Positions 5,681-61,096 of a DNA stretch of 64,000 nucleotides are shown one piece after another; positions within the stretch are counted from its first letter, which is position 1, and each line of letters begins with the position of its first letter. The notes beneath the pieces were generated by a model, which saw only the letters and a list, made by a program, of their open reading frames with translations, did no database searches and was not told the origin of the DNA. A program made the translations under genes and the position numbers. Source of the DNA: Buxus sempervirens (Eukaryota; Streptophyta; Magnoliopsida; Buxales; Buxaceae); assembly GCA_947561395.2 (NCBI GenBank), contig OX387193.1:27398276-27462275 (forward strand). Direction: 5' to 3'.

Positions 5681-5805
5681 ATCCGGATACAAGTACCCTT
5701 TCCCGTATCCGGATAGTCATACCGGATACGTGTGAGCCTTAGCGTATCCGGTACCATGTACCGGATACCTTAAGACCCTTTGTTATCCGGTCTGATGTAC
5801 CGGAT
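5681..5805 (+). promoter_or_regulatory. RT1 LTR dyad array (39-bp period)
   Basis: Four dyads of form ATCCGG-N9-CCGGAT, left arms starting at 5681 (shortened), 5707, 5746 and 5785. The intact copy in the 3' LTR starts at 25784, 25823, 25862 and 25901, exactly 39 bp apart. In the 5' LTR the first dyad lost 13 bp and became the compact palindrome GTATCCGGATAC. The array ends about 160 bp upstream of the TATA box. Confidence 0.85.
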
Positions 5806-5963
5806 ACCTTAAGTTTGCTCAAAATTAGGGTTTTCCGAGAGCTTTTCACTTTTACCATCATGTCCCTCATTAAATGAGGGGAAATCGCGGAAATAACCTT
5901 AGGGTTTAGGTTGGAGTGGTTCTAGACATTAAGTTGTGTCTACCAATGACCTTAGCCCTTGCC

Positions 5964-5971
5964 TATAAATA
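5964..5971 (+). promoter_or_regulatory. RT1 LTR TATA box
   Basis: TATAAATA in the context GCCTATAAATAGGAGCC, repeated at 26080-26087 in the 3' LTR. RT2 LTRs have the same box at the corresponding place (47652 and 57390). Confidence 0.75.
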
Positions 5972-7848
5972 GGAGCCTCCTCCTTGAGCAAATGGCACAC
6001 AACTCTTGTTTTGAATTCTCGCAAAGAAGAACTCCAAGAGAAGAAGAAAACCGCTGTGGAATCGCCTCCAGCACTCAGGTAAGCCTCAACTTTTCTTTTT
6101 ATTTTTTGTCTTTACATTCCTAGATCTAGATCTCTTCTTCTACCTTTCTGTAGTGTAAAGCCTTGTTTGTATGTGTGGAAATCCTTCCCCGGCTCAAAGT
6201 ATCTCAAGACTCCCCTAGCCGTAAAACGTGAAGGCGGATCTAGGAGAAACGAGACTGGGGATTGACCCTAGTGCTAGAACCCATGTAGCGTAAGGCCTTT
6301 TTGATTGATTGTAAACCGTTCCATATTCAAAGTACCCTTGATTATCTTAAAGAGAACAGAGGGAAACGATAATGGAACGGAACCCTAGGCTATGCTAGAA
6401 CCTATTTTGTTGAATCTATATGCATGTGTATGGATCTTGCTTGGTTTTTTTCACTTTTGCACACATATCACTATTTTGGCGGGATAGGCTCATATTTGGG
6501 GTTTATTGCATTTATTGTGATAAAACTCAAATAAATGACCTCAATCAATTCTGGAATGCCTTTCGGATGATTTTAAAGTATTTGTGTTCATCTTGCACGA
6601 ATTTCATTTTTATCAATTTTCGGACTTCGTTTTCTTCAAAAGTGGCTTAACTTGACAGCACCTGTACCCTTACTTCGGACGCCCATAACTTCATCATCCG
6701 GATGAATTTTGGGGTGATTCCAGAACCATGGGAAAGGTGAGGCTGTCTAGTTTATGTCCACCAAATTTCATGAATTTTCATATAGCCGATTTTTGACACC
6801 TCTCTGTCGAAGTTGAGTGGACAGTTCAGGTCCAAGTACAGAACTTGTCACTTCGACGGACCGCCATGTGTTCGTCTTAAGTCCGATTCGAGTGATTTTT
6901 TCTTCTGAGTACTCCTTTTTGAGTCTATTTTTAAATCCAGTTGGTTTCATATTTTTTGGATTCCATTTGAATTATTGGTAGCCGATTTACTCAGAACTGC
7001 TCATTTGCATTTTTCTGGGTAAATCTGTGATTTTCAGGGCCTGTTCGGGAGACCACCCAAGGCACGTCCGAAGGGATTTTTGTATGAGGCTAGTTTCTCT
7101 GGAAATATGGCCATACAGAATTCAATCACACCTAGTTTCACGGATTTCTATGTAGTGGATTTTTCTAGACAATTTTCCAAAGTTGCCCACTTACTACTTT
7201 TAAAAATCCCCAACAGCAACTTCAAAGGAGCATAACTCCTAGATTTTTCATTGGAATGAAATGAAATTTTGCATGAGACTCTTATTCACCCTAATCTTTC
7301 AAATGGATTTGGTTTGGTTCAATTCAAAATTGGATTTGAATGATTTTAAGGCAAATGGCATACTTTTTACCGAATTTTCCGGATTTGATTTAACTTGGTT
7401 TTATGCAACCTCTACTTTGATTTCCATCTTTTGAAATACTCCAGAAGTGATATTGACATAAGAGAAGATCTAAAATCCATTTGGATCTTCATGTGAAAAT
7501 ATCATACATTGTTCCTTTTTCAAGGTTTCTTATGATTTTTAGCAAGTTTTCTTACTTTGTTTTTTGCATGAATATACACTTGGCAACCACTTCGTGTGGA
7601 TGAATGGGGGTGCCTAACACCTTCCCCCGTTCATAATCTAATCCCCTTACCCATCTCTGGATTTGATTTTCAAGTAGGGTTATTTTTACCCTAGAATTTG
7701 TCTTTTGGCTATTTTTGCCTACTTTTGAATCTTTGGTGTCCATTCTCACCCCAAAATCATGAATGGTGGCGACTCTCCCAATTTTTGCGTTGAGCCCGTG
7801 TGCAGACGGAGGGAAGATCACCCCGGTGATTTTTTCCCATGTCTCACA

Positions 7849-7869
7849 ACTGGCGACTCTGCTGGGGAC
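7849..7869 (+). other. RT1 primer binding site
   Basis: TGGCGACTCTGCTGGGGAC begins two bases after the LTR end (7851). RT2 has TGGCGACTCTGCTGGAGAC at the same place. From memory this matches the tRNA-Arg-type primer site of Ogre/Tat elements; I did not check it against tRNA sequences. Confidence 0.8.
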
Positions 7870-9348: not shown

Positions 9349-9486
9349 AACCGGTAACTCAGGCCGGTTAATAACAACCCTGTTCATATCCGGTATATAT
9401 TTCCGGATAAAAAGGCATATGCGTGAATCCGGTTATGGTAACCGGATACAATAAGGCATATTATTATCCGGAATGTTATACCGGAT
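9349..9486 (+). promoter_or_regulatory. RT1 leader dyad array
   Basis: Four dyads with 6-bp arms and 9-nt spacers start at 9349 (AACCGG...CCGGTT), 9388, 9427 and 9466 (ATCCGG...CCGGAT), exactly 39 bp apart. The linkers are unrelated to those in the LTR array, so only the geometry and the arms are kept. Confidence 0.85.
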
Positions 9487-9784
9487 ACATTCAAAAAATG
9501 CACAAATTGGCTTTTCAGCCCAAATTTTCAGAATAAAATGCCTAAAACACTGTGGATAATCCTTAGGCACCCCGAAAAGAGCATAAAAAATGTTCCAAAA
9601 TACAGAAAGAAAAACAAAAAAAAAAGAATAAAATAAAATATTCTTTCAGGATTTAACCTAAGTTTGAAAATCAAAGAGGAAACCAAGGTGTCATATTTTT
9701 TGACACCAACTCAACTCAAACATGTGTCAGTCAAACTCTGGAACTTGAAAACTGAGAAAATTCAGCAAATTTGAAGAAGAAAAA

Positions 9785-10480
9785 AAACCTTTGGTTGGTT
9801 ATTTTTATCAATCAAATCAAAAGAAAAAAGTGGGACACTTGGAAGCCCTAGAATATTCCATGAAAACCTTGGTTGGTTATTTTTATCAATCAAATCAAAA
9901 AAAAAATTGAAAACCTTTGGTTGGTTATTTTTATCAATCAAATCAAAGCATTTGTGGGATACTTGGATAGAGTAGTCCAAGACACCTTTGGTTGGTTATT
10001 TTTATCAATCAAATCAAAACATTTGTGGGATACTTGGATAGAGTAGTCCAAGACACCTTTGGTTGGTTATTTTTATCAATCAAATCAAAACATTTGTGGG
10101 ATACTTGGATAGAGTAGTCCAAGACACCTTTGGTTGGTTATTTTTATCAATCAAATCAAAACATTTGTGGGATACTTGGATAGAGTAGTCCAAGACACCT
10201 TTGGTTGGTTATTTTTATCAATCAAATCAAAACATTTGTGGGATACTTGGATAGAGTAGTCCAAGACACCTTTGGTTGGTTATTTTTATCAATCAAATCA
10301 AAACATTTGTGGAATACTTGGATAGAGTAGTCCAAGACACCTTTGGTTGGTTATTTTTATCAATCAAATAAAAAATTTTGGGACCCTTGGAAGCCCTAGA
10401 ATATTCCATGAAAACCTTGGTTGGTTATTTTTATCAATCAAATCAAAAAAAAAAAATTTTTGGGACCCTTGGAAGCCCTA
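9785..10480 (+). repeat. RT1 leader tandem repeats (71-bp unit)
   Basis: The core unit contains GGTTGGTTATTTTTATCAAT and ACTTGGATAGAGTAGTCCAAG. Successive units start at 9985, 10056 and 10127, a 71-bp period, with near-identical copies to about 10370 and degenerate units on both sides. GGAAGCCCTAGAATATTCCA occurs at 9841, 10389 and 10471, and once after the unrelated RT2 array (51408). The unit contains imperfect dyads such as TTGGTT-N9-AATCAA. Confidence 0.9.
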
Positions 10481-10690
10481 GAATATTCCAACTCAAAACA
10501 AAAAAAAATAAAAAAAAATAAAAAAAAAAATCTGGATTGGTGTTCACCTAACCCACTGGTTTACATATATAGGGGTGTGACTCAAGTTAAATGAAAGCTA
10601 ACATGTTCTATTCATTTTTTGTCGCCAGGTACATTCAACCCAGGTACACTTGCAATCATTGCTCCAGTAACTAGATCCAAAGCCAGAACA

Positions 10691-18904: not shown

Positions 18905-20622
18905 CTAATCTCCTAGCCGCTCCTCAAGCTCCCGAATCCGAGCTGCCTGAGCTGCAATAACTCCTGAAGCCCCCTCTGCAGTGGGATCACTCAGGAAGGA
19001 AATGACCTCATCTGAAAGGGCCTGCTGGATCCTCATACTCCTAAGGCTGGCCAAAGTATCCTGGTACTTCTGCCGGATCATACGGACCTCGAAGCAACGG
19101 GCCTGCCTCTGCTCCTCCAGCTTCTCTTCCACGGCAATACGGCGTGAGGTCTGCTCATCAAGCTGCCTCTCCAGATAAGCACTCTGTATCCTGAGCTCCT
19201 GGGCCTCCCGTACCCATATCTGCTGAAGCCGCTTATGAGAAGCCCGCTCAGACTCTAGAATGTCCTCATAGATGGGAGCCAAGACTACAGGAGGATCTTC
19301 GGGTACTGGGGCCTGAGTCTGTATCTGTTCCTTGATCCAGAAGAGATAATCCTTCACATGGGTTTCCGAGAAGACAGGACCATGCATAAAGTGGACATAA
19401 GACCACTCCTTCATCAACCAGGCATTCAGCTTCATAGAAAGAGGCCCAAGACGATCCTCGTATCCATATGGGATGATAATCCCCTGGGTCGCTCGGAACT
19501 GACGAAGGACCCGCAGAGGAAGATAAAGCACTGCATGCTTTAGGCCTGCTAGGATCAGAAAGTTGCGGTCACGGAAGCTAATCACTGTCTCCGCATTGGG
19601 CTGATAAGTACCAGGCCATCTCACCTGGTCATCCTGAAGCGAGCCCAAGAAGGTGAACCAGCCCTGTTTGCCCCCTGAAATATCGGGGCACCCCCTGTTG
19701 CTCATCAACAAAGGGACTTTCAGACTCGGGAAGAAGTGTCGATTGATCTCTTCAATCTGGCTCAAATGATCAAGTAGCCAAAGCTGCAAAGGAAGAGAGA
19801 GGTGTCAGCACATGAGAGAAAAAAAAAAAAAAAAAAAAAAAAAGAGGCAAAAAGAAGGCCAAAAAGCAAGAAAAAAGAAAAAGAGAAAAAGAAAGAAAAA
19901 AAAAACTTGTTTACCTGCAGGATCTGGGCACATGCTAAGAAGCGTTTCGACTTCCTGTTGTAGCAGTCGGTCAAGGCCTGATACATCCCTGCTAAAATCA
20001 TAGGGGCCAACCTCTCCCTCTCCCGAACCTGGCATATCACGGAAATCAAGGCCAAGTCCACCTCGTCATCCTCCCGTGGGAAAAGTAATTGGTTGACCAC
20101 AATCAAGGTCAAGGCATTGAATCGGGCCTCCTTATCTTCTCCCCTCAAAAGTTTCTCAGTCAAAAAAGCCTTAGATAGGGTCAAAAGGGTGTCAGAATCC
20201 CCCAAGTCCTTCTTCCCTATGCCCAAAAAAGTAGAAGCTTCCTTCTTATAACTGGGCCTAAGAGGTGGATTCACCACCTTCTCATCAAACCTCAGGCCCA
20301 GGATGGTTTCCACCTCTTCAATGGTTGGGGACATCTCATGGGTCCCAAAACGGAACAAGTTGAGATCAGGAACCCAATGACCAATCATGGCCTCTATAAT
20401 CTCCCACTTAAAGGTAACCTTGGGAATGAGCAGGGTATGGCCTAGGTTAGTAGTACCCCATCTCCTCTCCTCATCTAGGGTCATAGAGTTAACCAACCTG
20501 GTGTAAAAGGAATCCACAGGGTTGTACCTAGTGAGATTTGGGGGTTTTGATCTAAAAGGCTGTTTTGCAGGGGAGGCAGTGTGGACAGACAATAATGAGG
20601 CAGAAGATGATCCGGATTCCAT
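18905..20622 (-). CDS. RT1 antisense gene 1: PMD-like protein, two exons
   Basis: Exon 1 is 20622-19915 (236 codons, ATG at 20622). Exon 2 is 19783-18905 (about 292 codons plus stop). The intron has GTAAAC at the donor and TTTGCAG at the acceptor and is a long A/G-rich run on the plus strand. The N-terminus is Ser-rich. Residues about 75-130 (KWEIIEAMIGHWVPDLNLF; MSPTIEEVETILGLRF) match the plant mobile domain pattern. A region with GTYQPNAETVISFRDRNFL follows, then a long charged coiled coil to the C-terminus (RIRELEERLGD). I do not know its biochemical role. Host PMD proteins are linked to TE silencing, and antisense extra genes of this kind are known in Tat elements. A TATA box and dyad array lie directly upstream on the minus strand. 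RT2 has a decayed orthologue, so it is a long-term part of the lineage. Confidence 0.82.
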
Positions 20623-20732: not shown

Positions 20733-20739
20733 ATTTATA
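20733..20739 (-). promoter_or_regulatory. TATA box of RT1 antisense gene 1
   Basis: TATAAAT on the minus strand, about 110 bp upstream of the ATG and about 14 bp downstream of the dyad array. RT2 has TATATAAA at the equivalent place (60941-60934). Confidence 0.65.
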
Positions 20740-20753: not shown

Positions 20754-20891
20754 ATCCGGTAACTCAGACCGGATACAAAGGCTTTGGTAATATCCGGATA
20801 AGTATACCGGATACAAGGATCTCATGAATATCCGGTATAACATACCGGATACAAAGACCAATCCATGTATCCGGTATGTCAGACCGGATAC
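20754..20891 (-). promoter_or_regulatory. Dyad array upstream of RT1 antisense gene 1
   Basis: Four dyads ATCCGG-N9-CCGGAT with left arms at 20754, 20792, 20830 and 20869 (steps 38, 38, 39). Arms are the same as in the LTR and leader arrays, with different linkers. The array abuts the minus-strand TATA box. Confidence 0.85.
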
Positions 20892-21099: not shown

Positions 21100-23787
21100 C
21101 TACTCCTGTGCAGGATCATCCCCGCGTCCTCGGCCGCGTCCACCTCTACGGCGTCTCCCCCAAAGGGCTCGGCCTCTAAAGTATGCAAGAATCCGCTCGG
21201 CCGCATGGCGAGGATGCCGACCTACCACCTGCTGAAGATGATACTCCAAGCAATAATCCTCGAGATCCGGGGGAGGAGCAGGAGTAGAATCTGGAGAAGA
21301 AGTCTCGGGCTCAGCAGCAACCGGCCCAACTGGGCCCTCATCCAAAGCATCCTCTACTCCCGCAGCTCCAGAAGGCCCAGCATCCGCAGCAGAGGGGCCA
21401 GGATCAGAAGTAGCTGAGTCCACAGAAAAGAGAAAAATCAGAAGATTCAGATATAAGGAAGAATAAAAGAAGAGAATAAAAAGAAGATCATACCAGGAAT
21501 GTCTGCAGAAGGAGCAGGAGGATCCGGCTCGTCAAGACCAGCCACTGGGGCATCCTCGGGATCAGAGGCCCGGGCAGGAGATGGGTCAGGAATCAGGAAA
21601 TCATGCCCAAAGAAGGCATCCTGATCATGGACCGGGCCCTGCACAAGTCAAACAAGCATATCAGAATAGCAGAAACAGAAAAATAATGAAAGAAATGAAC
21701 ATATAAGAAGGCCAAGTACCTGTCTAGCCTGGAGCTCAGCAACCAAGGCCTCCAGCTCCCTGATCCGGGCATCCCGCTGGGCCACGACCGCATCGTGCTC
21801 CGCGATCATATCATCGATCGCAGCCCGCTGGCTCTCGAACCGGTCCCGAATGGAGTTCAGCTCGTGTACCTGCCAGCAAGAACGGAAGCATGGTCAAAAA
21901 GGCATAAGGAAGGAAAAGAGGATAAAAATGGGAAGAATACAAGGCTTACCGTGTCCTCATGGATCCGGATACGGATCCCGCCAATCTCAGTCACCCCAGC
22001 ACGAGTGGGTCGATCCATCAAGCATCCAATAGACACCCGCTGGAACCACTCGTCATAATCTCCAGCTACTGTAAGCCCCTCCGCATCCAAGAAGTGATCG
22101 AACTGATCAACATCAAAGCCCGGGAGGAGTGTGTCGGGACCCACAGCAGGAGGAGGGACGGGGATGCGAAGTGCGCCAGTGTGCTGGTAGTACAGGCGCT
22201 CTCCCAAGTACATCACCCTACCAAGCCTCCCAAGGAAGCACTGGTAAGGCTGACGTCGGAGATCTCTCTCAAAAGCATCCTGTACTGCCATCTCACGGGC
22301 AACTCCGACATCCACGTCATCTGGACGGGATAGAATGAGCTGCAAAGAAGCAAAGTGGTCAGATACAGTCAAAATACAGGAAAGGAAATAAAATAAAAAA
22401 ATAGAGGACTTACATCAGATCGGCGTGCACGGTCTAAGTGCACCCGAGCGGTACGAGGCTGGCTCCTATCGGCATCTCGAACCTGGGCCGACCATCGCAG
22501 GGCCACAGGAAAATCCGCAACCTCAGGAACCGGGGAGGGACGGAAGAAGGTCATATAGGTGTACATGAACACCTAGCAAAGGAAAAATCAGTCAAGAAAA
22601 GATAAAGCTTAAAGAATTAAGCCAGACAGATGAATGCAATACCTGTAAAATCTGCCAGAAGAACCGGCTGCTGACTCCATCACCTCTCGGAGATGCTAAG
22701 CCTCGAACCGCTCGGCACAGCCCGGCCAAGATGGTCCCATAGATCAGCCGACCCCATGCTAGCTGGCGGGTCTGATAGAAATCTCTCAAGGCGTCCAAAA
22801 AGAGCGGACTGACACCGGTAGTATCCTCCGGGAAGAAGCAGCTCCCCAACATCAGCAGGAATACATGTCGGAAAATCGGCGCAAAGGCTGCATCCTCCAC
22901 AGAAACGGTCTCGTGCCTCCTCTCAAAATGGCGAGCCAGACTCTCCCGCAGCCAGCTAATGGAGAGCCGGCCACTCCTCCCATCCCAGGCAGTAGGTGGC
23001 AGGGCCTGATACCCCAAAAGGAGGCCAATATCCTCCGAAGAAGGCCGCTCCAAGACAATGGTCCGCCCCGTCAGAGGAATGCCCGTAATCATCACAAAAT
23101 CAGAGGGGCGGATCCCCAGCTCCACGTCTGGCAGATGGAATGACTGAGTCTCTGGGAAGTATCTCTCCATCATGGCAAAGATGAGTGGACGATCGGCTCG
23201 GAATGATGGAATGCTGAGGAAGTGATCCAGATGGCATCTCCCAAACTCCCGCCTGAGTGCCGGAGAAAGTGACTGTGCCAACTCGCTGAATCTCCCCCAG
23301 CTGCCGCGCAAGTGAGAAGAGTAGTAGGGAAGCGGCACATCGGCCCTGATGCACATGGAGGGGTGGCTATCCAAGCCATGGAGGAGCTCTGTATCATGCA
23401 CAGAAGCCCTCAACTCCTCAGAGACCCCTGCCAAAGCTACAGCAACCCCCTCCGGAGCCATATCTCTGGCTCTGCCTCGGCCTCTACCACGGCCTCTCTC
23501 GCCCTCAGGGGCCTGATCCTAAACCCGGCCTCTGCCTCGGCCTCGACCACGAGCGGGTACAACCACGGGCTGAATTGCAAAGGAACAGCGTGAATATTTG
23601 TGTACAAGGGAGAATGAAGAGAGAAAGAAATTTTTTTTTGAAAACCTACCTCGGCAGAACTCTCTCTGGAGTCACCTAATGGCTCAGACAAAGTGGCGCT
23701 GGAGCTCGCCTCTGTCCGAGCCCGCGAACTGGAGGGCTGATCAGCTGGGTCAACCTCCTCTCTAACTCGGGAACGACTCCTAGCCAT
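21100..23787 (-). CDS. RT1 antisense gene 2: PMD-like protein, seven exons
   Basis: Seven exons with GT...AG borders and compatible phases: 23787-23650, 23518-22643, 22572-22414, 22339-21950, 21869-21720, 21638-21494 and 21413-21100, totalling about 723 codons. The ATG follows the 5'-UTR intron acceptor directly. Exon 1 is Ser/Arg-rich. Exon 2 begins with Arg-Gly repeats and carries the PMD-like core (MMERYFPETQSFHLPDVELG; PSDFVMITGIPLTG; SCFFPEDTTGVSPLF). Exon 4 has FLGRLGRVMYLGERLYYQH. Exon 5 is a coiled coil, exon 6 is acidic and Pro-rich, and exon 7 ends in an RRGGRGRGRG-type tail that may bind nucleic acid. An alternative acceptor (exon from 23569) would include an in-frame TAG that is itself the AG of the acceptor at 23519. 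The function is unknown. RT2 has a decayed copy. With splicing and a separate promoter this behaves as a gene of its own rather than chance antisense reading. Confidence 0.8.
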
Positions 23788-25056
23788 CTACACAGGGAAG
23801 TACTTTATGAATTGTGAAGTTGGCTTTAATTACAGTTCATATCCAATTTTACATGATTATTCTTCAAAATTATCGTGAATTATGAATTTTGCTGGGATAT
23901 CTACAAAGTTGGGAAATGAGGAATACTTCTGTTTCTAATCCTGAAACATTTCCTAAAAGATTCCTACATTACTTAACATTTCCTATATATTATGTTTCCA
24001 GGATATGAGAAGAAGGAAGGCCCAGGTATCAAAGGCAAGCCGAATTACAGAAATCCATATTGGACAGTCAATTAAGGAAAATTCACAGCAAAATGGAAAG
24101 GGAGCAGAAGCTTTTAATCCCGGAAATCAGGATTCAAGCCAAATTTTTGTAAGCATGGTATCATCATTTGCAAGCATCTCAAAGAAATGCAGAAACTCAG
24201 AATAGCAAATGGGCAGCCAATCAAGAAGTTGACAGGCTAAATTGAAAAAAAAACAGTATGGCATTTGCATTTCAAAAGTAGTCTGAGGCATGGCAAGTCA
24301 GAATTCATCACCAATCAAAAACAGAAAAATCCCAACAGGAAATCAACAATTCAACATCCAAAAAGCATGCAAGCAGCAGCTCTATCAGCAGTCGACCCAA
24401 GGTCTTGAAACCATCCAATAAACAATGCAGCAAATTGCAGCCTATCCAAAATTAGAGCATGGCAATAGCATGGAACAGCAATTACAAATTCAGGCTCGAA
24501 ATCAGCAATGAATGGAAACAAATTTGCCATTTTCGGCAAGACCAGTGGGGTGATTGGCAATGGTTTACCAGTGGACTAAATTCCACCAACAGTCAAAGTA
24601 AAATTCGGCAATCAAGATAAACAGTAAATTTTTCGTGGGAGGATGCCATGCAATAGTTACAGTTTGATTAAACAAGAAAGAAAAAACCTGTCTGCAGGTA
24701 GAGGAGTCGGATTGCTTGACTGGAATTCAGGTGGAACAGTCGAATCACCAGGAAGCTAGGGCTCGGCCACCACAGGATATGAGCAAGATGTATTCGATCC
24801 TTGCCGAGGAATCGCCGGAGCTCAAACTGTCAAGCAGAATCGAGCAAATCCCGAAAATGGCGAGCTAGGGCTTGGTCGCGCAACCAGGTTGGGTCGCCGG
24901 CAGCAATAGGAGTCGCCGGAGTTGCCGGAGGGCGCCGGAGAAGCAGGACGAGTCGTCGGGTGAAGAAGAAGAAGGAGATGGCCGGTCTGAGTTGTCGGAG
25001 ACTGAAGAAAAGAAATGGAAAGTCGCGGTCGCGCGCGACTTAAGTAAACATGCGGG
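23788..25056 (-). promoter_or_regulatory. 5' UTR, intron and promoter region of RT1 antisense gene 2
   Basis: Read on the minus strand, a GC-rich segment (about 25040-24690, many CCGGCGA motifs) ends in GCAGACAG|GTTTTTT, a donor. An AT-rich stretch then ends in CTGTGTAG|ATGGC at 23788, an acceptor directly before the start codon. This suggests a noncoding first exon with a roughly 0.9-kb intron. No TATA box is obvious. Open frames on either strand are low-complexity and not convincing. Confidence 0.5.
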
Positions 25057-25117
25057 ATCCGGATACTCAGGCCGGATACCCGCAGAGCCTTCATTATCCG
25101 GATACACCTACCGGATA
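25057..25117 (-). promoter_or_regulatory. Dyads upstream of RT1 antisense gene 2
   Basis: Two dyads ATCCGG-N9-CCGGAT with left arms at 25057 and 25096, 39 bp apart, immediately upstream (minus strand) of the inferred first exon of antisense gene 2. Confidence 0.8.
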
Positions 25118-28442: not shown

Positions 28443-28643
28443 AACAGGAATTAAATTTCGGTTATAAACAAATTGTGTATAACCGGAATTCAATTCCGGT
28501 TCATAAAATTGAAATAAAAAATCGCCCGACAGATTCTCTGATTCCGTACCTAACAGAAATTAATTGCTAATCGAGTGCAAAAGTAACCGAAATTCAATTT
28601 CGGTTACAAATAAAAATAGTATAACCGAAATTGAATTTCGGTT
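28443..28643 (+). promoter_or_regulatory. E3 dyad array upstream of its TATA box
   Basis: Dyads AACCGN-N9-NCGGTT with left arms at 28443 (AACAGG), 28481, 28585 and 28623, as two pairs 38 bp apart separated by a longer gap. The last has 14-bp arms around a single base (28619-28647). Its edge is about 40 bp from TATAAATA at 28686. Confidence 0.85.
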
Positions 28644-28685
28644 ATACTAAAAAATCAATGTAATTTCGGTTACCTTTTTTCTGGC

Positions 28686-28693
28686 TATAAATA
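28686..28693 (+). promoter_or_regulatory. E3 LTR TATA box
   Basis: TATAAATA in the context GGCTATAAATAGGGACC, the same context as in the RT1 and RT2 LTRs. Confidence 0.7.
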
Positions 28694-29841: not shown

Positions 29842-29979
29842 AACCTGAAACTCAGACCGGTTAAGAGGGTTTTCTAGCATAACCGAAATCCAATTTCGGT
29901 TAAGCTAGAATTACAGTATAACCGAAATCCATTTTCGGTTGTACTGTGTATTGTGTTTAACTGAAATCAATTTTCGGTT
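29842..29979 (+). promoter_or_regulatory. E3 second dyad array
   Basis: Left arms AACCTG, AACCGA, AACCGA and AACTGA at 29842, 29881, 29920 and 29959, exactly 39 bp apart, each with a 9-nt spacer and a CGGTT right arm. It lies about 1.1 kb downstream of the TATA box inside the LTR. Confidence 0.85.
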
Positions 29980-34745: not shown

Positions 34746-34846
34746 GCCCGTATTTGCTATACGGGCTAGCCTAGCCCATAAATGTCGGTTCAGGCCTGCC
34801 CGTATAGTAAATACGGGCACGCCCAGACCGTACTGTAAATACGGGC
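34746..34846 (-). promoter_or_regulatory. E4 dyad array, 3' part of LTR
   Basis: Left arms GCCCGT 34746, GCCCAT 34774, GCCCGT 34798 and GACCGT 34826, each with a 9-nt spacer. Right arms are ACGGGC except at the second, which is degenerate. Steps are 28, 24 and 28. Confidence 0.8.
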
Positions 34847-35684: not shown

Positions 35685-35833
35685 GCCCGTAATTCAAATG
35701 TGGGCGAAAAACTCACGTTTTCAAATCTCGCCGAATCGGCTGGCTGTCACCGTACGGGAAGCGTGTCCCCCTTCTAGAAGGCTTGCCCGTATTTGAAGTG
35801 CAAGCATGCCTCGCCCATACTTCAAATACAGGC
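35685..35833 (-). promoter_or_regulatory. E4 dyad array upstream of its TATA box
   Basis: Clear dyads start at 35685 (GCCCGT-N9-GTGGGC), 35785 and 35813 (28 bp apart), with degenerate ones between. The first lies 14 bp from the minus-strand TATAAATA (35664-35671). Confidence 0.65.
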
Positions 35834-43648: not shown

Positions 43649-46624
43649 TGTAAAACCCCGAATTTTCACCTAATAAATAAATAAATAATAAAGAAAAGAA
43701 AATATGAGTTAAGTGAAGATTTAGAGGGTAAGTAATTCAAATAAGTCATAAGTTGAAAATAAAGAAAGAATTTTAATGGAATTAGCCTAAAAGAATAAAA
43801 AGGGTATTTTGGTAATTTTCAGAAAATGGTAATTAATAATTAGATCATTAAATAAAACTAGAATTAGAAAATAGAAAGAAATAATTTATTTTGACAATTT
43901 AGAAATTAAAAGAAATTAATAAAAGCCTAAAAGTAGGAAAAAGGGTAATTAGGAGATTTCACGTATTAATTTGGAGAAAATAAGGTTTTAGGTGATGTTT
44001 AATGTTTAAGTAATTATTAGGCATGAAAATAGCTTGTAAAGAGTGTTTAGATAATAAGAGAATTGATTAGTATTGTTTTAGTAGAAAAATAGAAGGTGGA
44101 GAAAAGTAGGAATTAAATTAGAAGGTGTTAGACATTAATTAGACCATGGTTGGGTTAGCCCAAATTAAAGTAGCCAATTAGGGTTGTTTTAGGACTTATA
44201 AAGCCTAATATAAATAGGAGACTAAGGTTAGACAAGAGGAAATTTTCATGGGTTTATTTATTGAGAGAAAAGAGAGAGAGAGAGAAAGGAAGAAGGTGGC
44301 TAATGGAGGTGTCTGACCAGCCATCATCAAAACATGATCGGGGAAGATCCGTGCGGTGGATCGCCTTCAAATTTGGAGGTTTTGGTCTTCACTGATGGAA
44401 ATACATTGTGTACGGTGGAGATTTGAATTGGGAGAGTCTAACTTGGTGCGTTTGGGAGCAAAAGTAAGGTCCAGAATTAGAAGTTTCAATGGAAGAAAGA
44501 TTTAGCATATAAGGCAAGTAGTAACTCTTGGAAAACGTGAGGAATTGCATGATTTCGTTTTCTGTGATTTAATATTGATTGAACGGATTAGTCGGAACAT
44601 TATTTACATGGAATCAAATTGGTTATATGTTAGTGATTGGTATTCTTGAGGGATTTGTTGAATTAAAGAAGAAAACTTGGTTTAATCATGAAATTAATTA
44701 TAGGATGGTATTTAATTAAGAAAAATTAATCTAAAAGGCTTTAGGAATGTTTTAGAATGTTATTAGATTAATTTAGACCAAAGAAACATATGGCAAAGGC
44801 ATAAAAATCCGAACTTTAAAAATCTGGAAAATTCTGTTTAATTTTGCACGAGCGCCTAGGATCGCCTAGCCCTGTAGAGGTCGACGCTCTATGTAAATAT
44901 TGCAGATTTTGGGAATTTTGTAATAGGAATAATCATCCAATAAATTTTTGATTAGTTAAGCATATTAGCATCTTTATAAGGACCTAATTAAAGTATAAAA
45001 ATTATAAAATTAATTTGGAAATATTAAGCAATAAATTGAAGGTTATAATGAAAGGTTTGTCTATAAAAGGGGCAAAGGGTATGGATATTGCTAGAAATAA
45101 TACCACTGGTGCTTATAGCTTATAAACATCTTCTAAACTTTATTTTAGGTCTGTAGAATATGCTGGGGAAATAAAATACAGAAAATTTAAATAGAAACTA
45201 ACTTAGGTGTTAAGATAGGAAATTGGATTCTAATAAAAGGGATTAATTAAAGGAAACTTTAAGATTTGTTTTACTTTATTTGAGCTTTCAATATGAATGT
45301 TGGATTTTGGAATTGCATAAACTCTGGTTTCTATCGAATTTATGATGCATGAGCTTTATTCGAATATAATTAAGAAATTGCATATGTTATTCTGAAAAAG
45401 CCTTTAATGGAATTAGTAAGGATTGAATCATGGATTTCACATGGAATGGAATACTTGGGTATGGTTTGGTATGTGGTGTGAAGTTATTAGCTTTTCTTTT
45501 ACGGTTGAGTGGTACGGCTTCTGTGGTAGAGTTTGATATTAACTTTTACGGCAGAGATGGGTAATCCTCTGTGTAGAGATGTGTAATCCTTTACAGGTAA
45601 AAGTGTGTATGCCTCCTACATTAGCGTGTCCTCCCGTATGTGGTTTTATCGTGGTTTGTGTCAGTGGGCTTAGCTATATATGGATCCATAGTTTTTGCTG
45701 GTTAGCTAAGTGGTATTTAGTTTGGGTTGAGTTACTCCTATATGCGAGCGCGCTTCCCTTGTAAGTTAGTTTGCTTTGGGAAGGTCCTATGTCTGGAGGG
45801 ACACCCCAGTGCATCGCTGGTGATTCCCTGTACATGTGGATAAGCGGCCATTTCCATGTATTGATTCTGGTGCTGCATGCTGGTGGTATATGCCAACTCT
45901 GTTGAGTTCGTGCGCAATAAGTCGGTGACTACGACTCTTGTCTATAGTTGCGCTGCATGGGGCTTGAGTATCATCTAGTAGCACTGCCCCTAAGTTGCAC
46001 AGTGGTATAGCAGTTAGTTGAGTGTCCTCTCAAATACTTATCATCTTTGTGAGTCCTGCAATGGCACATGATTTTATCGCTTTTGTCAGTTTTACCTCAT
46101 TAACATCAAGTTATTGGTATTTATACATGTTCATCTGTTTTATCGCTTTATTTGGAATTGCCATGGATAACTTGGATTACTCGTCTTATCATTGGTTAAT
46201 CGAATACCTCATGACTATTTGCTTACATTGGACTGTTTCTAATTGCGTGCACCTGCTACTTGCTGAGATGTAAATCTCACTCCGTTTTCCCCTATTTTTC
46301 AGGTTACTTGGAGAAATCGCGAAGATGGGGTTTTAAATTGATGGGTAGAATTGTAATTGGTATTAAGGTCACATGTTGATTAAATAAACTTTATTGTAAA
46401 CTGAATAGATATTATTGAATAAAGAATTGTTTTTTTTATTGGCCACCATAACTCTGATATAATTCGTTAAAGTTTAAAATTATTGTGAATCTTGTTTTGT
46501 ATCTGACCCCAGCTTCGTGGTAACATCTCGAGTTTGGTTGTTGAATTAGACTTGGGTTGTTACAGTAGCGAACCGGGTTCGGGTTGAGTGCCGGTTTGCA
46601 CTGACCAGGGTTCGGGGCGTTACA
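43649..46624 (+). mobile_element. Solo LTR, TGTAAAACC...GGGGCGTTACA family
   Basis: 2,976 bp from TGTAAAACCCCGAATTTTC to GGTTCGGGGCGTTACA, flanked by AGTTA (43644-43648 and 46625-46629). TATAAATA is at 44209-44216. It is collinear with the minus-strand copy at 1-2304. The termini resemble those of plant chromovirus-type Ty3 LTRs, but no internal region exists here to confirm the lineage. Short open frames are not conserved between copies. Confidence 0.92.
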
Positions 46625-47241: not shown

Positions 47242-49052
47242 TGTAGACACCCCAAATTGCACTACAAAATGAGAAAATAATTGAAAACATGTAATTGGGG
47301 CTTAAAATAGGTCAAAAATGCATAAAATCTGATCAAGCATGCATTGCCCGTATTGAATCTGCGGGCTGGTCGCGCCCAAAATTGTTATACAGGCATGCCA
47401 CTCCCGTATTGAAAATACGGGCACCATTTGCCTGCAATATATATACGGGCGCGATGTTTTTGTGCGAATTTTATCCTTTCTCGATTTCTGAGCCTTATCT
47501 TCAGTCTAATATCTCTTTCAATGAGTGAATTATCTCTTTTATTCGTTCGAAATATCTTTGTTGGCCATGGATGGGCATTATCCTTATTTTTAACACAATC
47601 TAGTGGGATCCTGGTATATCCCTCTGGACCAGCCATACCCCTGGGTTTGCTTATAAATAGAGGTGAGATCCTTAAGCAAAAGGCCACGAAAATTTGAAGT
47701 CTAAGGAGCTCCAAGTGAAGAGAGGAATCCCTGCTGCTCTGCTTGCTCAATCCAGGTAAGTCCCTTTTTCCTTTTATTTTATGTCTTCAATTCTAGAAGT
47801 AATAGTATCTTCTCCATTGCTGTAGAATAAGGCCTCCTTTTGTCTTGTATTACTAAACTTGTCTCTAAGTACCTCAAGAGTCTCTCTAGCTGTAAAACGT
47901 GAAGAGAGAGCTAGGGGAAAGGGGAACAGGTGGATCCCTAGAATAGAACCCCGTATCTGTTTTTCTCTTTTTTTCTAGAATAAGGCCTTTGATTGTGTTT
48001 GTATCACCAAACCTATCTCCAAGTACCTCAAGAATCGTCTCTAGCCTTAAAACGTGAAGAGAGAGCTAGGGGAGAAGAGAACAGGTGGATTCGTAGGGTA
48101 GACCCCTCATGTGCTCTAATCTGTGAGATATTGCTGCTTTGAATATCCTGTTCATGTTTTAATGGTTTTTATGTTGAATCTGAATGAATCATATGAATCC
48201 ATGATGTTTATAGCATGAAATCCTCTTTTTCTCCTAAAATTGAGATTTTTACCACTTTTGCACCTACAGCACTGTTTTCGTGATTTTTGTGATATTAGGC
48301 TAAGATCATAGATCTATCATGATCAATATAATAGATCTGGATATTCAGAAGCCTTAAAGTAACTTCTAGGGTTTCATGATATGGTTTTTGAATTTTTTTT
48401 CACTTTTGAGAGAAGACCCTACGGTCTAAGTTCTCCCCTTTTGATGTTCTTCATCAACGTAGGTATTTTTTGGTTTTGATTTCTTGATTTAATGTGAAAT
48501 TTGGGCTATACCTGTATCCTGGACTGTTCAAGTTCAATTCTGCAATATTTTAAAAAAATAATATTTTTCCAGATTTCTAGAATTTAACTTGAAGCCAAAT
48601 TTTTTAAGTTTTCACTTTATTTTGGTTTTATTTGATTTTATCTCAATTTTGTTTTAATCATGAAACCCTAGGAATGGTATGATCATATTTGAAAGTTTTG
48701 AATCAATCAGGCTATTCGTATGAAAAAACCATACACTTTTGTCTTTTTTGTGATTTTTCATGATTTTTGTAGCAAGCCTTTTTTTCTTTGAAAAACATGA
48801 ACAATGCCTGGCAACCACCTTGTGTGGATGAATAGGGGTGCCTAACACCTTCCCCTGTTCATAACCTAATCCCCTTACCTATCTCTGGTTGTTTTTTTAG
48901 AGGGTGATTTTTACCCTAAATTTGCCTTTTGTGCTTATTTGATATTTTGGTGTCCATTCACACTTAAACAGAATGGTGGCGAATCTGTGTTTTTTTACCA
49001 ATCCCGTGTGATGATCAGGAAGTCATTGAATTGATTTTTCCCATGTCTCATA
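47242..49052 (+). repeat. RT2 5' LTR
   Basis: TGTAGACACCCC to CCATGTCTCATA, 1,811 bp. The same family is present as the solo LTR at 56983. TATAAATA is at 47652-47659. The U5 block GGGGTGCCTAACACCTTCCC (about 48834) is shared with RT1. The decoy primer sequence reads TGGCGAATCT here (about 48976) and TGGCGACTCT in the solo copy. Confidence 0.92.
47346..47450 (+). promoter_or_regulatory. RT2 LTR dyad array (28-bp period)
   Basis: Left arms GCCCGT 47346, GCCCAA 47374, TCCCGT 47402 and GCCTGC 47430, exactly 28 bp apart, each with a 9-nt spacer. Right arms are GCGGGC, ACAGGC, ACGGGC and ACGGGC. Confidence 0.85.
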
Positions 49053-50428: not shown

Positions 50429-50570
50429 TTCGTGGAAAATTCAATTTTAAACAGTTTTTCTCACTAAATCATGTTCCTTTAACCTTTAAATGATGATAAA
50501 GGGAGATGAGTTTGAATAAAATGTTTCAAAAAAAATTTTAATAAAAATGTGAAACAAAAAAAATCTTTTG

Positions 50571-51388
50571 GGCCTTTGAAAGCCTTTGAATTTCAGACTT
50601 TTTCTCAAAAATCCTTGGGCCCTGAAAGCCTTTGAATTTCAGACTTTTTCTCAAAAATCTTTGGGCCTCTGAAAGCCTTTGAATTTCAGACTTTATCCTT
50701 TGAGCCTCTGAAAGCCTTTGAATTTCAGATCTTTGGGCCTCTGAAAGCCTTTGAATTTCAGACTTTACCTTTGGGCCTCTGAAAGCCTTTGAATTTCAGA
50801 TCGTTTTCCTTGGGCCTCTGAAAGCCTTTGAATTTCAGACTTTTTCTCAAAAATCTTTGGGCCTCTGAAAGCCTTTGAATTTCAGACTTTACCTTTGGGC
50901 CTCTGAAAGCCTTTGAATTTCAGATCTTTGAGCCTTTGAATTTCAAAAAATCCTTGGGCCTCTAAAAGCCTTTGAATTTCAGACCTTTTTCAAAAATATC
51001 CTTGGGCCTCTGAAAGCCTTTGAATTTCAGACTTTTTTCTCAAAAACCTTTGGGCCTCTGAAAGTCTTTGAATTTCAGATTTTTGGGCCTCTGAAAGCCT
51101 TTGAATTTCAGACTTTACCTTTGGGCCTCTGAAAGCCTTTGAATTTCAGATCTTTTTCTTTAGGCCTCTGAAAGCCTTTGAATTTCAGACCTTTCTCAAA
51201 AATCTCTGGGCCTCTGAAAGCTTTTGAATTTCAGACTTTTTTCAAGAATACCCCTGGGCCTCTGAAAGCCTTTGAATTTCAGAACTTTTGCAAAAATATC
51301 TCTGGGCCTCTGAAAGCCTTTGAATTTCAGACCTTTTTCAAAAATACCCCTGGGCTTCTGAAAGCCTTTGAATTTCAGATCCTTTTCT
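50571..51388 (+). repeat. RT2 leader tandem array
   Basis: About 20 copies of a core GGGCCTCTGAAAGCCTTTGA continuing ATTTCAGA, with variable 4-20-bp spacers (for example TCTTTTTCTCAAAAATCTTT). Each core holds a perfect dyad CTGAAA-N9-TTTCAG. The sequence is unrelated to the RT1 71-bp array at the same place, but both are followed by GGAAGCCCTAGAATATTCCA. Confidence 0.9.
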
Positions 51389-51614
51389 CTTTTTTGTGGG
51401 ACCTGTTGGAAGCCCTAGAATATTCCAACAATTCTAAAAAAAAAGAGAAGCAAATAAAGAAACAAATCCAAACTCGTGTTCACCTAACTTGCACATAGGC
51501 CTTCATAAGTATGTGAATGAGATCAAATTGGTACTGATATTTTTCTTTATTTTTCACCAGGTACCAAGTACACTTGCAACCATAGCTCCTGTAACCAAAT
51601 CAAGAGCTCGCGCT

Positions 51615-56982: not shown

Positions 56983-58786
56983 TGTAGACACCCCAAATTG
57001 CACTACAGAATGAGAAAATAGTAAAAACATGTAATTAGAGCTTAAAACAGGTCAAAATGCATGAAAACTGACAAGGCATGCTTTGCCCGTATGTTATTCA
57101 CGGGCCGATCGCGCCCGAAATGTCTCTACGGTCAGGCGCGCCCGTATTGGAAATACGGGCACCATCGGACCGTAAATCATTTACGGTCACTAAAGACTCG
57201 TGCGAGTTTTATTCTTCTCTCAATTTCCGAGCTTTATCTTTAGTCCAATATCCCTTTAAATGAGCGAATTATGTCTTTTATTCGCTGAAGCCACCTTGGT
57301 TGGCTATGGATAGGCATTATCTCTGTTTTTCACTCTATCCTAAGGATCAGGATATATCCTTCTGGACCAGCCTTGCCCCTGTGCTTGCCTATAAATAGAG
57401 GGCCTTTCCTCAAGCAAAAGGCCACGAAAATTTGAAGTCCAAGGAGCTCCAAGAGAAGAAGAGGAACCCCTGCTGCTTTGCTTGCTCAATCCAGGTAAGT
57501 AACTTTTTCCTTTTATTTTCTGTCTTCAATTCTAGAAGTAATAGGATCATCTCTATTGCTGTAGAATAAGGTCATCTTTTGTATCTAGTATTCCTAAACT
57601 TGCCTCTAAGTACCTCAAGAGTCTCTCTAGCTGTAAAACGTGAAGAGAGAGCTAGGGGAAAGGGGAACAGGTGGATCCCTAGAATAGAACCCATATCTGT
57701 TTTTCTCTTTTTTTAGAATAAGGCCTTTGATTGTGTTTGTGTAACCAAACCTATCTCCAAGTACCTCAAGAATCCTCTCTAGCCGTAAAACGTGAAGAGA
57801 GAGCTAGGGGAAAAGAGAACAGGTGGATCCGTAGGGTAAACCCCCATGTGCTCTAATCTGTGAGATGTGGCTACTTTGAATATCCTGATCATGTTTTAAT
57901 GGTTTTTATGATGAATCTGAATGAATATATGAATCTATGATGTTTATAGCATGGGATCCCCACTTTTTTATAAAATTTGGATTTTTCACATATTTGCACC
58001 TACAGCACTGTTTTCGTGATTTTTGTGATTTTAGGCTATGATCCTGGATTTATCATGATCAATATGATAGATCTAGATCCAGAAGCCTGAAAATAAATTC
58101 TAGGGTTTCATGATGTGGTTTTTGAGTCCTTTTTCATTATTGAGAGAAGACCCTACGGTCTAAATTCTCCCCTTTTGATGTTTTTCATCAACGTGGGTAT
58201 TTTTGGTTTTTATTTTTAGATTTAATGTGAAATTTGGGCACTACCTATATCCTGGACTGTTCAAGTTCAATTTTGAAATATTTTATAAAAATCATATTTT
58301 TCTAGATTTCTAGAATTTAACTTGAAGCCAGATTTTTAGGTTTTTCACTTTAAATTGATTTTATTTGATTTTATCTCAATTTTATTTTGATCATGAAACC
58401 CTAGGAATGGTATGATCATATTTGAAATTTCTGGATCAATCAGACTATTCGTATGAAAAAAACCATATATTTTTGTCTTTTTTGTGATTTTTCATGAATT
58501 TTATAGCAAGCCTTTTTTCCTTTGAAAAACATGAACAATACCTGGCAACCACCTTGTGTGGATGAATAGGGGTACCTAACACCTTCCCCTGTTCATAACC
58601 TAATTCCCTTATCCATCTCTGGTTTTTTTTAGGAGGGTTATTTTTACCCTAAAATTGCCTTTTGTGCTTATTTAATATTTTGGTGTCCTTCACACCTAAA
58701 TTGAATGGTGGCGACTCTTTGTTTTGTTTAATCCTGTGTGATGATTGAGGAAGTCAACGGAAATTGATTTTTTCCCATGTCTCACA
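56983..58786 (+). mobile_element. Solo LTR of the RT2 family inside RT2
   Basis: 1,804 bp, TGTAGACACCCC to CCATGTCTCACA, flanked by ACAGG (56978-56982 and 58787-58791). RT2 sequence homologous to RT1 continues on both sides, so this is a later insertion and not the 3' LTR of RT2. The dyads start at 57085, 57113, 57140 and 57168. TATAAATA is at 57390-57397. Confidence 0.93.
57085..57188 (+). promoter_or_regulatory. Dyad array of the solo LTR
   Basis: Four dyads with 9-nt spacers: GCCCGT...ACGGGC (57085), GCCCGA...ACGGTC (57113), GCCCGT...ACGGGC (57140) and GACCGT...ACGGTC (57168). The last has perfect 10-bp arms around one base. Steps are 28, 27 and 28. Confidence 0.85.
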
Positions 58787-59106: not shown

Positions 59107-60842
59107 CTAATCCCTACCCCCTAACTGCTCCTCAAGCTCCCTAATTCGAGCAGCCAGAGTTGCAATGATTCCAGAAGCTCCCTCTGCATCAGGATCGCTA
59201 AAAAAGGAGATAACCTCATCTGAAAGAGATTGCTTAATCTTCAATGCCCTAATGTCAGCCATGGAATCCTGATATTTCTTCCGCATGCTCGGACTTCAAA
59301 GCGACGAGCCTGTCTTTGTTCCCCAAGTTTCTTCTCCATGGCAATACGGCAAGACCTCTGCTCTTCAAGTTGCCTCTCCAGATCAATACCCTTTATCCTG
59401 AGCTCTTGTGCTTCTCGTACCCATATTTGTTGAAGCCGCTTGTGGGTTGCCCTTTCAAACTCTAGGATATCCTCATAAGTAGAGGGAAGAACTGCAGGAG
59501 GATCCTCTGGTACTGGGGCATAATTCTGCACCTGCTCTTTAATCCAGAAATGATAGTCCTTCACATGGGACTCAGAAAAGACCGGACCCCGTAGAACGCG
59601 AACATAGGACCACTCATTCATTAACCGAGCATTTAGCCCGATGGTGGCTCGTGTAAGTGGCCCTACAAAGCTCTCATAGCCAGTTGGGATCGTGATCCCC
59701 TGGGTCGCTCCAAACTACCGAAGAACCCTCAAAGGAAGATAGAGAACAGCAGATTTCAAGCCTTCTAGGACCAAAAAGTTCCTATCTCTAAAGCTGACCA
59801 CTGTCTTTGGATTGGGCTGATAAGTGCCAGTCCATCTCACCTGATCATCCTGGAGAGTACCCTAGAAAGTGAACCAGCCCTGCTTGCCGCCTTGGATGTT
59901 AGGACACCCCCTATTGCTCATCAAAACAGGAACTTTCAATCTTGGAAAGAAGCGGCGAGTTATCTCTTCAACCTGACTCAGATGGTCAAGCAACCAAAGC
60001 TACAGAAAATGGAGTATTTTAATTTATTTCAAAAGAAAAGAGAAAAAAAGGAAAAAAAAAGGGGGGGGAAAGAAAAAGAAAAAAGAAAGAAAAAAAAAAA
60101 AGAAATATATATATATATATATATTTTTTATTTATCTTTTTACCTGTAGGATAGGGGCGCATGCAAGGAAGCGTTTCTTCTTTCTAGAATAGCAGTCAGT
60201 CAGGGCTTGGTATATCTCTGCCAAGATCATAGGGGCCAATCTCTCACGTTCCCTAACCTGGCAAACAACTGAGATGAGAGCCAAGTCAACCTGGTCGTCA
60301 CCCCGTGGAAAGAGCAATTGGTTGACCACTATTAAAGTCAAAGCATTAAACCGGGCATCCTTGTCCTCACCCCTCAGAAGTTTTTCAGTCAAAAAGGTCT
60401 TGGACAAGGTCAGCAGTGTGTCAGAATTTCCTAGATCCTTCTTCCCTATACCCAAGAAGGTGGAGGCCTCCTTTTTGTAGCTAGGCTTTAGGGGCGAGTT
60501 CACAACTTTTTCCGAAAACCTTAGGCCAAGGATGGTTTCAATTTCTTCTATGGTAGGAGTCATCTCTTTGTCATCAAAACGGAAGAGATTTAATTCAGGT
60601 ACCCAATGTCCTATCAAAGCTTCAATGATTTCTCACTTAAAGGGAATTTTAGGGATGTGTAGGATATGGCCTAAGTGGATGGAATCCCAACGAATTTCCT
60701 CATCAAGGGTTATAGAGTTAACCCACCTATCATAGAAGGAATCCAAAACATTGTACCTAGTAAGATTATGAGGTTTTGATCTAACAGGTTGTCTTGCAGG
60801 AGGAGATTCATCGGCAGAAGAGAACGGGGTGAGGGAAGCCAT
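59107..60842 (-). pseudogene. RT2 antisense gene 1 (PMD-like), decayed
   Basis: Same two-exon layout as RT1 18905-20622. Exon 1 is 60842-60144 with donor CAG|GTAAAAAG, and exon 2 is 59999-59107 with acceptor CTGTAG. The ATG is at 60842. The codon for Trp before EIIEA is a stop (60630 area), and exon 2 contains a frameshift near 59280 and stops near 59715 and 59860. The PMD-like motif MTPTIEEIETILGLRFSEKV is well kept. TATATAAA and a five-dyad array lie upstream on the minus strand. Confidence 0.82.
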
Positions 60843-60933
60843 GGAAGCACCAAAGAAGCCAAGGAAAGCAAAAAACGGAAGGCTCAGGGAGTTTTCAAAC
60901 TATTAAAAATGTCACAATGACATTCCCCATGAG

Positions 60934-60941
60934 TTTATATA
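60934..60941 (-). promoter_or_regulatory. TATA box of RT2 antisense gene 1
   Basis: TATATAAA on the minus strand, about 95 bp upstream of the ATG and about 22 bp from the dyad array. Confidence 0.6.
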
Positions 60942-60963
60942 GAAAATTCGAAAAGGCAATAAA

Positions 60964-61096
60964 ATCCGCATTTATAATACGAGCGTGGCGTGTCCGTATA
61001 AAGAGTGCGGACACACTGTGACCGTTAAAATTTTACGGGCAGCATACACCCGCATTAACATTAGGGGCAGCGCTCGCTCGTAATATAAATACAGTT
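60964..61096 (-). promoter_or_regulatory. Dyad array upstream of RT2 antisense gene 1
   Basis: Five dyads at 60964, 60992, 61020, 61048 and 61076, exactly 28 bp apart, with 9-nt spacers. The best are GTCCGT...GCGGAC and GACCGT...ACGGGC; the outer ones are degenerate. Confidence 0.8.

Follow-up and report, generated by a model that had tools for sequence, protein, structure and literature searches.

Arrays of strictly spaced CCG-N11-CGG dyads with element-specific arm codes in Tat-type LTR retrotransposons of Buxus sempervirens

What are the short palindromes that recur in tandem in the long terminal repeats (LTRs), the 5' untranslated region (5'UTR) and upstream of the antisense genes of Tat-type retrotransposons in a 64,000-nucleotide stretch of the Buxus sempervirens genome (contig OX387193.1, positions 27,398,276 to 27,462,275; hereafter the window)? 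A preliminary description of this DNA had noted dyads of two 6-bp arms with a strict 9-nt spacer, and had proposed that they are operators, selected as binding sites of a regulator that the elements themselves possibly encode. The dyads were recounted by script across the window, with CCG required at arm positions 3-5. This analysis revealed 27 perfect CCG-core dyads of the 6-9-6 form compared with 0-1 at every other spacer from 3 to 19; with one mismatch allowed, there were 36 dyads at spacer 9 and 1-5 at the other spacers. Dinucleotide shuffling (n = 200) gave a mean of 0.02 perfect dyads at spacer 9 (maximum 1) and of 1.5 dyads with one mismatch (maximum 7). The core CCG-N11-CGG was identified 37 times, compared with 0-13 times for each of the other spacings from 0 to 30, and this everted form was enriched relative to the inverted form CGG-N11-CCG (n = 14). 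The element RT1 carried 17 perfect dyads, or 14 without its second LTR copy, and the spacer was 9 nt in all of them, which upholds the earlier count of 14 of 14 on the latter basis. Start-to-start steps between clustered dyads were 39 bp (n = 35), 38 bp (n = 3), 28 bp (n = 8), 27 bp (n = 2) or other (n = 3), counting both RT1 LTR copies, as the previously described period of 28 or 39 bp predicted. Because the steps of 28 and 39 bp are 11 bp apart, roughly one helical turn, adjacent dyads would keep the same face of the DNA.

The same geometry was identified across the 676.5-Mb genome. Exact matches to ATCCGG-N9-CCGGAT numbered 32,622 compared with 36 for a reversed-pattern control, and the arms ATCCGA (9,544 sites, control 51), GCCCGT (14,261 sites, control 8) and AACCGA (2,000 sites, control 60) were likewise enriched at N9. 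When spacers of 10 to 30 nt (21 lengths) were pooled, ATCCGG arms yielded 1,625 sites (control 778), and among the matches listed these were mostly steps between adjacent dyads. We also analyzed a random sample of 12 10-kb stretches, taken from the first 24 Mb of 12 large contigs. In this sample, perfect CCG-core dyads numbered 22 at N9 compared with 0-3 for other spacers, and code-type dyads were present in 7/12 stretches. By our own reading of the comparisons, 21 of the 22 lay inside or directly adjoining DNA that resembles the window's Tat LTRs or 5'UTR, while one (L007, 6645) looks stray. The 9-nt rule thus extends to other copies, and both the genomic enrichment and the excess over shuffled sequence anticipated by the preliminary description were found.

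RT1 is a complete Tat-type LTR element (5589-27964, plus strand), with a target-site duplication ATTGG recognized by eye, LTRs that are 98.9% identical and the primer-binding site TGGCGACTCTGCTGGGGA at 7851; it is nested in the LTR of another element, E3. Its gag-pol lies on the plus strand and contains the Pfam domains Retrotrans_gag, RVT_1, RT_RNaseH and RVT_3, and rve, indicating a Ty3/gypsy gag-pol with two RNase H-like domains. Two antisense PMD genes are located between pol and the 3' LTR in RT1, as also in RT2, a second element of the window, and in L018, a relative of RT1 from elsewhere in the genome. The Tat label is that of the preliminary description and fits these gag-pol and antisense-gene features. 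The first antisense open reading frame of RT1 (aORF1; 18905-20622, minus strand) comprises a DUF7745/PMD exon, an intron, the splice sites of which are also conserved in RT2 (by eye), and a second exon with a coiled-coil-like C-terminus (coiled coil and start codon by eye). The second, aORF2 (21857-23790, minus strand, 5' end by eye), comprises a PMD exon (23518-22592) and a further exon (22414-21857).

Dyad arrays were identified in both LTRs and the 5'UTR of RT1 and upstream of each antisense gene. The 5' LTR array (5681-5805) contains three perfect ATCCGG dyads (5707, 5746 and 5785) and a collapsed first dyad, and the LTR TATA box is at 5964; only the 3' LTR (25784-25921, four perfect ATCCGG dyads) retains an intact first dyad, the 5' LTR being 13 bp shorter at this place. 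The 5'UTR array, between the primer-binding site and gag (9349-9486), has four dyads with a 39-bp period, the first with AACCGG arms. The aORF1 promoter array (20754-20889) consists of four perfect ATCCGG dyads, and the last of these is 14 bp from the minus-strand TATA box TATAAAT (20733-20739). Two perfect ATCCGG dyads lie upstream of aORF2 (25057-25116). A separate feature of the 5'UTR is a block of 71-bp tandem repeats (9784-10448; Tandem Repeats Finder [TRF], 95% matches) between the dyad array and gag.

Placement at promoters was examined for 24 arrays of at least two dyads (one mismatch allowed) from the window and the 12 random stretches, with both RT1 LTR copies counted, by searching for TATAWAW on the outer side of each array in comparison with 2000 permutations. 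A TATA box was identified within 40 bp of 8/24 arrays (1.2 expected; reached in 0/2000 permutations), within 100 bp of 9/24 (2.7 expected; 2/2000) and within 250 bp of 15/24 (6.1 expected; 0/2000); these permutation figures include two of the eight close TATA boxes (47346 and 60992) that are TATA-like strings within decayed dyads. The gap from the last arm to the TATA box was 13-15 bp at nine promoters covering four codes (RT1 aORF1, L018 aORF1, E3, E5, L005, L011, L007, L008 and L016), some of the last dyads being decayed and located by their right-arm match. Taken together, these data show that the dyads are real, very far above chance and linked to promoters. They also bear on the idea that the dyads act as stem-loops in the transcript. 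A 6-bp arm with a 9-nt loop could fold, and the 5'UTR and internal arrays lie within the genomic RNA; however, many dyads are upstream of the TATA box and so outside the transcripts that start there, and the 27 single-mismatch clustered dyads (G.T in 6, A.C in 8, other in 13) displayed no plus-strand wobble bias. We consider an RNA role hardly credible.

The arm sequence, or code, differed between elements: ATCCGG in RT1, ATCCGA in L018 and GCCCGT in RT2. To follow how codes change, seven pairs of aligned arrays were counted, including arrays from two random stretches (L010 and L011) that had not been chosen by their arms. Between the RT1 5'UTR and L011, position 6 was changed on 8/8 arms (ATCCGG to ATCCGA), compared with changes at 2/40 of arm positions 1-5, 14/36 spacer positions and 16/54 linker positions. 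A similar pattern was observed between the RT1 LTR and L010 (position 6 on 7/8 arms, other arm positions 2/40, spacers 24/36, linkers 27/54). Between L007 and L008 the arms had changed least (arms 3/48, spacers 15/36, linkers 22/155). The pair RT1-L001 (arms 0/48, spacers 23/36, linkers 19/54) was dropped as evidence, and the pair L001-L010 (position 6 on 7/8 arms, other arm positions 2/40, spacers 9/36, linkers 17/54) proves little about arms, because L001 was found with the ATCCGG pattern and its arms were matched by that choice. In L018, whose DNA is 73-74% identical to that of RT1, the LTR, aORF1 and aORF2 arrays all contain dyads of the ATCCGA type; this element was picked from ATCCGA matches at those distances, and shows that such elements exist rather than how frequent they are. 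RT2 is also close to RT1 (identity of 78-80% for aORF1, of 80 and 92% for pol pieces), yet both code and period differ. Conversely, the LTRs of the elements E5 and RT2 share one code with no other similarity found, and the related elements E3 and E5 have different codes. The code thus appears to be largely a property of the element, with both arms switching together while the linkers are not replaced.

Such switching, with linkers that can still be aligned, argues against whole-array duplication, which we rejected for RT1-L011 and RT1-L010, and for a trans-acting, dimeric DNA-binding protein. Decay of CpG was rejected as the sole cause, the changes at position 6 (8/8 in L011, 7/8 in L010) contrasting with 1/24 and 2/24 at the core positions. 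The dyads are most likely under selection, and selection on a protein-binding site rather than simple duplication is well supported by these two comparisons, to which the TATA placement adds; here the earlier proposal stands. Its companion claim, that spacers and linkers change while arms persist, was borne out in the same two pairs and needs one amendment: dyad spacers are AT-rich with code-specific end bases, and are not free sequence.

Two alternatives were weighed against these comparisons. Palindromes could be maintained without selection by template switching or gene conversion, for which tandem 28- and 39-bp arrays and LTR copying give scope, and the arrays of L005 and L011 are near-identical throughout. 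Such a process is very improbable, as in RT1-L011 and RT1-L010 the arms, and not the spacers or linkers, were kept or switched together, one code is held by arrays kilobases apart, and the TATA spacing is narrow at nine promoters. Alternatively, the sites could belong to several paralogous host transcription factors of a single family and have been captured by Tat LTRs, with no reader encoded by the elements. Some LTR families that carry arrays did yield no PMD gene in the stretches available, and a derivative (L020) that lacks aORF2 and most of aORF1 appears to have inserted recently, as suggested by same-spacer dyads 13.9 kb apart. However, different codes coexist in one genome, position 6 was switched on 15/16 arms in L011 and L010, for which a shared host factor gives no reason, and the antisense genes themselves have sites at their promoters. 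We judge a purely host-derived system unlikely.

A further observation concerns the heptamer AACTCAG, which, as such, in a near form or as the complement, occupies the 9-nt spacer of the first dyad in many internal and LTR arrays across families and codes (window 9349, 20754, 25057 and 29842; L001, L007, L009, L010 and L011). It may represent a second site.

To identify a candidate reader, we examined the antisense genes. Their dN/dS values, obtained by simple counting with synonymous sites partly saturated and one comparison not computable, were 0.06-0.14 for aORF1 and 0.10-0.22 for aORF2, and both genes look selected. In the comparison of RT1 with RT2, aORF2 had the highest dN (0.44-0.50), followed by gag (0.21), aORF1 (0.13) and pol pieces (0.04-0.12). 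In the comparison of RT1 with L018, the codes of which differ at one position per arm, dN was about 0.10 for aORF1 and 0.13-0.16 for aORF2. In these three elements aORF2 thus diverges with the code and aORF1 does not. From this pattern an element-encoded reader is plausible, with the aORF2 PMD protein as first candidate; replacement of aORF2 by recombination would look the same. The aORF1 DUF7745/PMD protein, the coiled-coil-like second exon of which could dimerize, or both PMD proteins, might instead read the dyads. The dN/dS of aORF1 favors this, as do its promoter array, the clearest of the RT1 arrays, and a weak sense DUF7745 ORF in the E3-type stretch L008. We nevertheless regard it as distinctly unlikely, since aORF1, in contrast to aORF2, remained 78-80% identical between RT1 and RT2 despite wholly different codes. 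Database searches added little: a PDB sequence search with the aORF2 PMD exon gave a single match at E 1.5 and nothing meaningful, and a protein search with spliced aORF1 gave one relative only. No RT1 similarity was found in L017, examined for antisense genes of the L011 element.

The best explanation of the data is that a sequence-specific protein recognizes the dyads, which it would bind as a dimer at two outward-facing half-sites 9 bp apart, each an 8-9 bp code-specific sequence around an invariant CGG core, with dyads stacked into arrays at 28- or 39-bp steps. That they are protein-binding sites with an element-specific address is very probable. The arrays would mark the Tat-type transcription units (the LTR promoter, the 5'UTR site and the two antisense PMD genes) and place the units of each element under one trans-acting factor, related elements having moved to different addresses. 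We lean modestly towards operator or upstream activating sequence (UAS) arrays that wire these units to a single factor, which would likeliest be element-encoded, with aORF2 again the first candidate. This factor would act on its own and kindred promoters, most likely as an activator or anti-silencer because many arrays are just upstream of TATA boxes, and deletion derivatives that keep arrays but not genes would use it in trans. Of the earlier suggestion of an operator for a regulator, possibly element-encoded, the binding-site part is accordingly the firmer, and its second part has become plausible with aORF2 named on comparative grounds. The fuller picture, a self-encoded, address-coded Tat/Ogre transcription circuit in which PMD is a new dimeric DNA-binding class, dyads are phased to the TATA box, protein and address co-evolve and derivatives live off intact relatives, is tentative, and we place it a little short of an even chance.

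Several observations weigh against this explanation. Among the aligned arrays, L007 versus L016 displayed no clear contrast (arms 8/48, spacers 10/36, linkers 45/157), and the changes in L005 versus L011 were too few to tell (arms 1/36, spacers 2/27, linkers 0/14). L016 mixes ATCCGA with ATCCGG/AGCCGG inside one LTR, and the first dyad of L010, which has the AACTCAG spacer, did not follow the code switch. Of the 24 arrays, 9 lack a TATA box within 260 bp, including those in the 5'UTR and upstream of aORF2 in RT1 and the second array of both E3 and E5; the LTR arrays of the RT1, RT2, E4 and L010 types are 158-201 bp from their TATA box, and RT2 aORF1, where TATATAA and the last good dyad are 50 bp apart, is an exception. 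The link between code and aORF2 is based on three elements only, and the stretches of E3, E5 and L005 that were available yielded no PMD gene. The E3-type L008, with the ATCCGG code, has a sense DUF7745-like ORF after its 5' LTR (L008 3-512, minus strand) that is barely above the Pfam cut-off (26.2 compared with 26 bits). The AlphaFold model of the aORF2 PMD exon had a mean pLDDT of 38 and was not used, and direct DNA binding has, to our knowledge, not been demonstrated for any PMD protein.

Arrays of the same form were identified in the other elements of the window. The LTR promoter array of E3 (28481-28671) has AACCGG/AACCGA dyads at 28481, 28585 and 28623 and a decayed dyad at 28651-28671, followed after a 14-bp gap by TATAAATAG at 28686; its second array (29842-29979) has four AACCGA-type dyads, two of them with one mismatch, at a 39-bp period. 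E5, an LTR on the minus strand, runs from 36393 to about 34080 and is related to the start of E3 (73.6% over 367 bp). Its promoter array (35685-35833, minus strand) consists of decayed GCCCGT dyads with TATAAATAG 13 bp downstream on the minus strand, and a second array of GCCCGT dyads lies at 34746-34846. The assignment of arrays to elements in the preliminary description is revised for 34746-34846, which belongs to E5.

RT2 carries four decayed GCCCGT dyads at a 28-bp period in its 5' LTR (47346-47450; dyads at 47346, 47374, 47402 and 47430), with a TATA box at 47652. A solo LTR inserted in RT2 (56983-58786, target-site duplication ACAGG by eye) has four GCCCGT/GACCGT dyads (57085-57188) and a TATA box at 57390. 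Both antisense genes of RT2 are broken: aORF1 (59119-60818, minus strand; DUF7745/PMD) and aORF2 (62295-63796, minus strand; PMD), the latter 45-52% identical to that of RT1 at the amino acid level, the scale on which the aORF1 value given above was also obtained. The aORF1 promoter array (60964-61096) has five dyads at 28-bp steps (60964, 60992, 61020, 61048 and 61076) and is mostly decayed, including the outer dyads, 60964 and 61076, which were recognized by eye. The DNA just right of the window (L019) was fetched to test the prediction of an array upstream of RT2 aORF2. It contained three decayed GCCCGT-type dyads at 27-28-bp steps, matching 9, 11 and 9 of 12 arm bases, and then the 3' LTR; in RT1, which has a different code, matches to at least 9/12 GCCCGT arm bases occurred at five scattered places in 22 kb. 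The RT2 5'UTR also contains a tandem repeat (50559-51389) with steps of 33-48 bp and one of 107 bp, for which one TRF period is 39. Within it, 17 CTGAAA-N9-TTTCAG dyads (50622-51358) share the 6-9-6 geometry but lack the CCG core and have near-constant spacers, and we read them as an ordinary tandem repeat.

L020, an RT2-type deletion derivative, lacks aORF2 and most of aORF1 but has kept its arrays. Perfect dyads with the same spacers as its own were found 13.9 kb away, where the other LTR would be; if they belong to that LTR, this suggests that L020 moved recently, and movement without genes of its own would mean that the reader acts in trans. Dyads kept upstream of its LTR array (L020 7181-7785) are probably the former aORF2 promoter array. 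Elsewhere in the window, an inverted pair of about 2.3 kb (1-2304 and 43649-45905, 83% identical) and ORFs at 2361-4025 matching DUF4218 and DUF4216 were observed, which together we take to be probably a DNA transposon.

Known systems were compared with these arrays. The UAS of GAL4-type regulators is an inverted CGG-N11-CCG, bound by a Zn2Cys6 protein and present in several copies upstream of the TATA box. The Buxus dyads likewise have CGG triplets 11 bp apart in multiple copies upstream of TATA boxes, but are everted, and no Zn2Cys6 zinc-cluster domain was among the Pfam matches of the ORFs scanned. Palindromic sites of host LBD/LOB or ARF proteins would be recognized by half-sites and spacings particular to each family, and a literature search on this point, confined to open-licence papers, yielded none. 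In the parts of the open-licence literature that our search covered, no such dyad arrays were reported for LTR retrotransposons. The PMD proteins MAIN and MAIL1 are needed for the expression of genes that share the promoter motif 'DOWN' and so also tie PMD proteins to a promoter motif (PMC7156037); these are host genes, however, and the sections consulted describe neither direct DNA binding nor dyad arrays. Among Ogre elements 57% contain PMD, and 23% of Retand elements contain Transposase_28 (Neumann 2019, PMC6317226); for Retand elements tandem arrays and possibly regulatory antisense Transposase_28 ORFs are reported (Vicient 2025, PMC11963269). The position of the antisense genes between pol and the 3' LTR and their proposed regulatory role (PMC11963269) are shared with the Buxus elements. 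In contrast, the portions consulted of these two papers (PMC11963269, PMC6317226) describe no dyads, target site or element-wide code, whereas here PMD genes and candidate sites occur together; Transposase_28 (PF04195) was not among the Pfam matches of the RT1 antisense ORFs, which were PMD/DUF7745 instead.

The nearest analogue is the VANC proteins of VANDAL elements (MULE DNA transposons of Arabidopsis), which, in the parts consulted, are reported to bind short tandem-repeat motifs that co-diverge with the protein (PMC5735166, PMC10398659). In both systems the target motifs form non-coding tandem arrays (here in the LTR, 5'UTR and aORF promoters) and differ among related elements (here ATCCGG, ATCCGA and GCCCGT). 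The Buxus arrays differ in belonging to LTR retrotransposons with PMD/DUF7745 proteins, in being strict 6-9-6 dyads rather than single same-orientation motifs, and in their narrow TATA distance at nine promoters. When 30 ORF entries, one of them a duplicate, were scanned with Pfam, PMD and DUF7745 were among the matches and DUF1985 was not. The two systems may work alike, yet the Buxus arrays are not a member of VANC/VANDAL, because there is no DUF1985 among the ORFs scanned and they belong to an LTR element. By analogy, the bound protein might strip DNA methylation from the element rather than act as a classical activator. The family-specific, co-diverging motifs of VANC would fit such a role, as would the CG and CHG methylation sites inside the CCG/CGG cores; the 13-15 bp TATA distance at nine promoters fits a direct promoter role better, and we hold anti-silencing of this kind to be somewhat unlikely.

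Antisense PMD and related genes are widespread in Tat/Ogre elements, according to the parts consulted of two surveys (PMC6317226, PMC11963269), and an element-wide operator code beside such genes makes their function a direct binding question. If the proposed circuit is true, a VANC-like system has evolved in plant LTR retrotransposons, by which selfish DNA tells self from kin by address, a new class of DNA-binding protein with several natural specificities exists, and elements without the genes may still move by this means. With four codes that together account for more than 58,000 exact sites in 676 Mb, the dyads would then be a major class of regulatory site in the Buxus genome.

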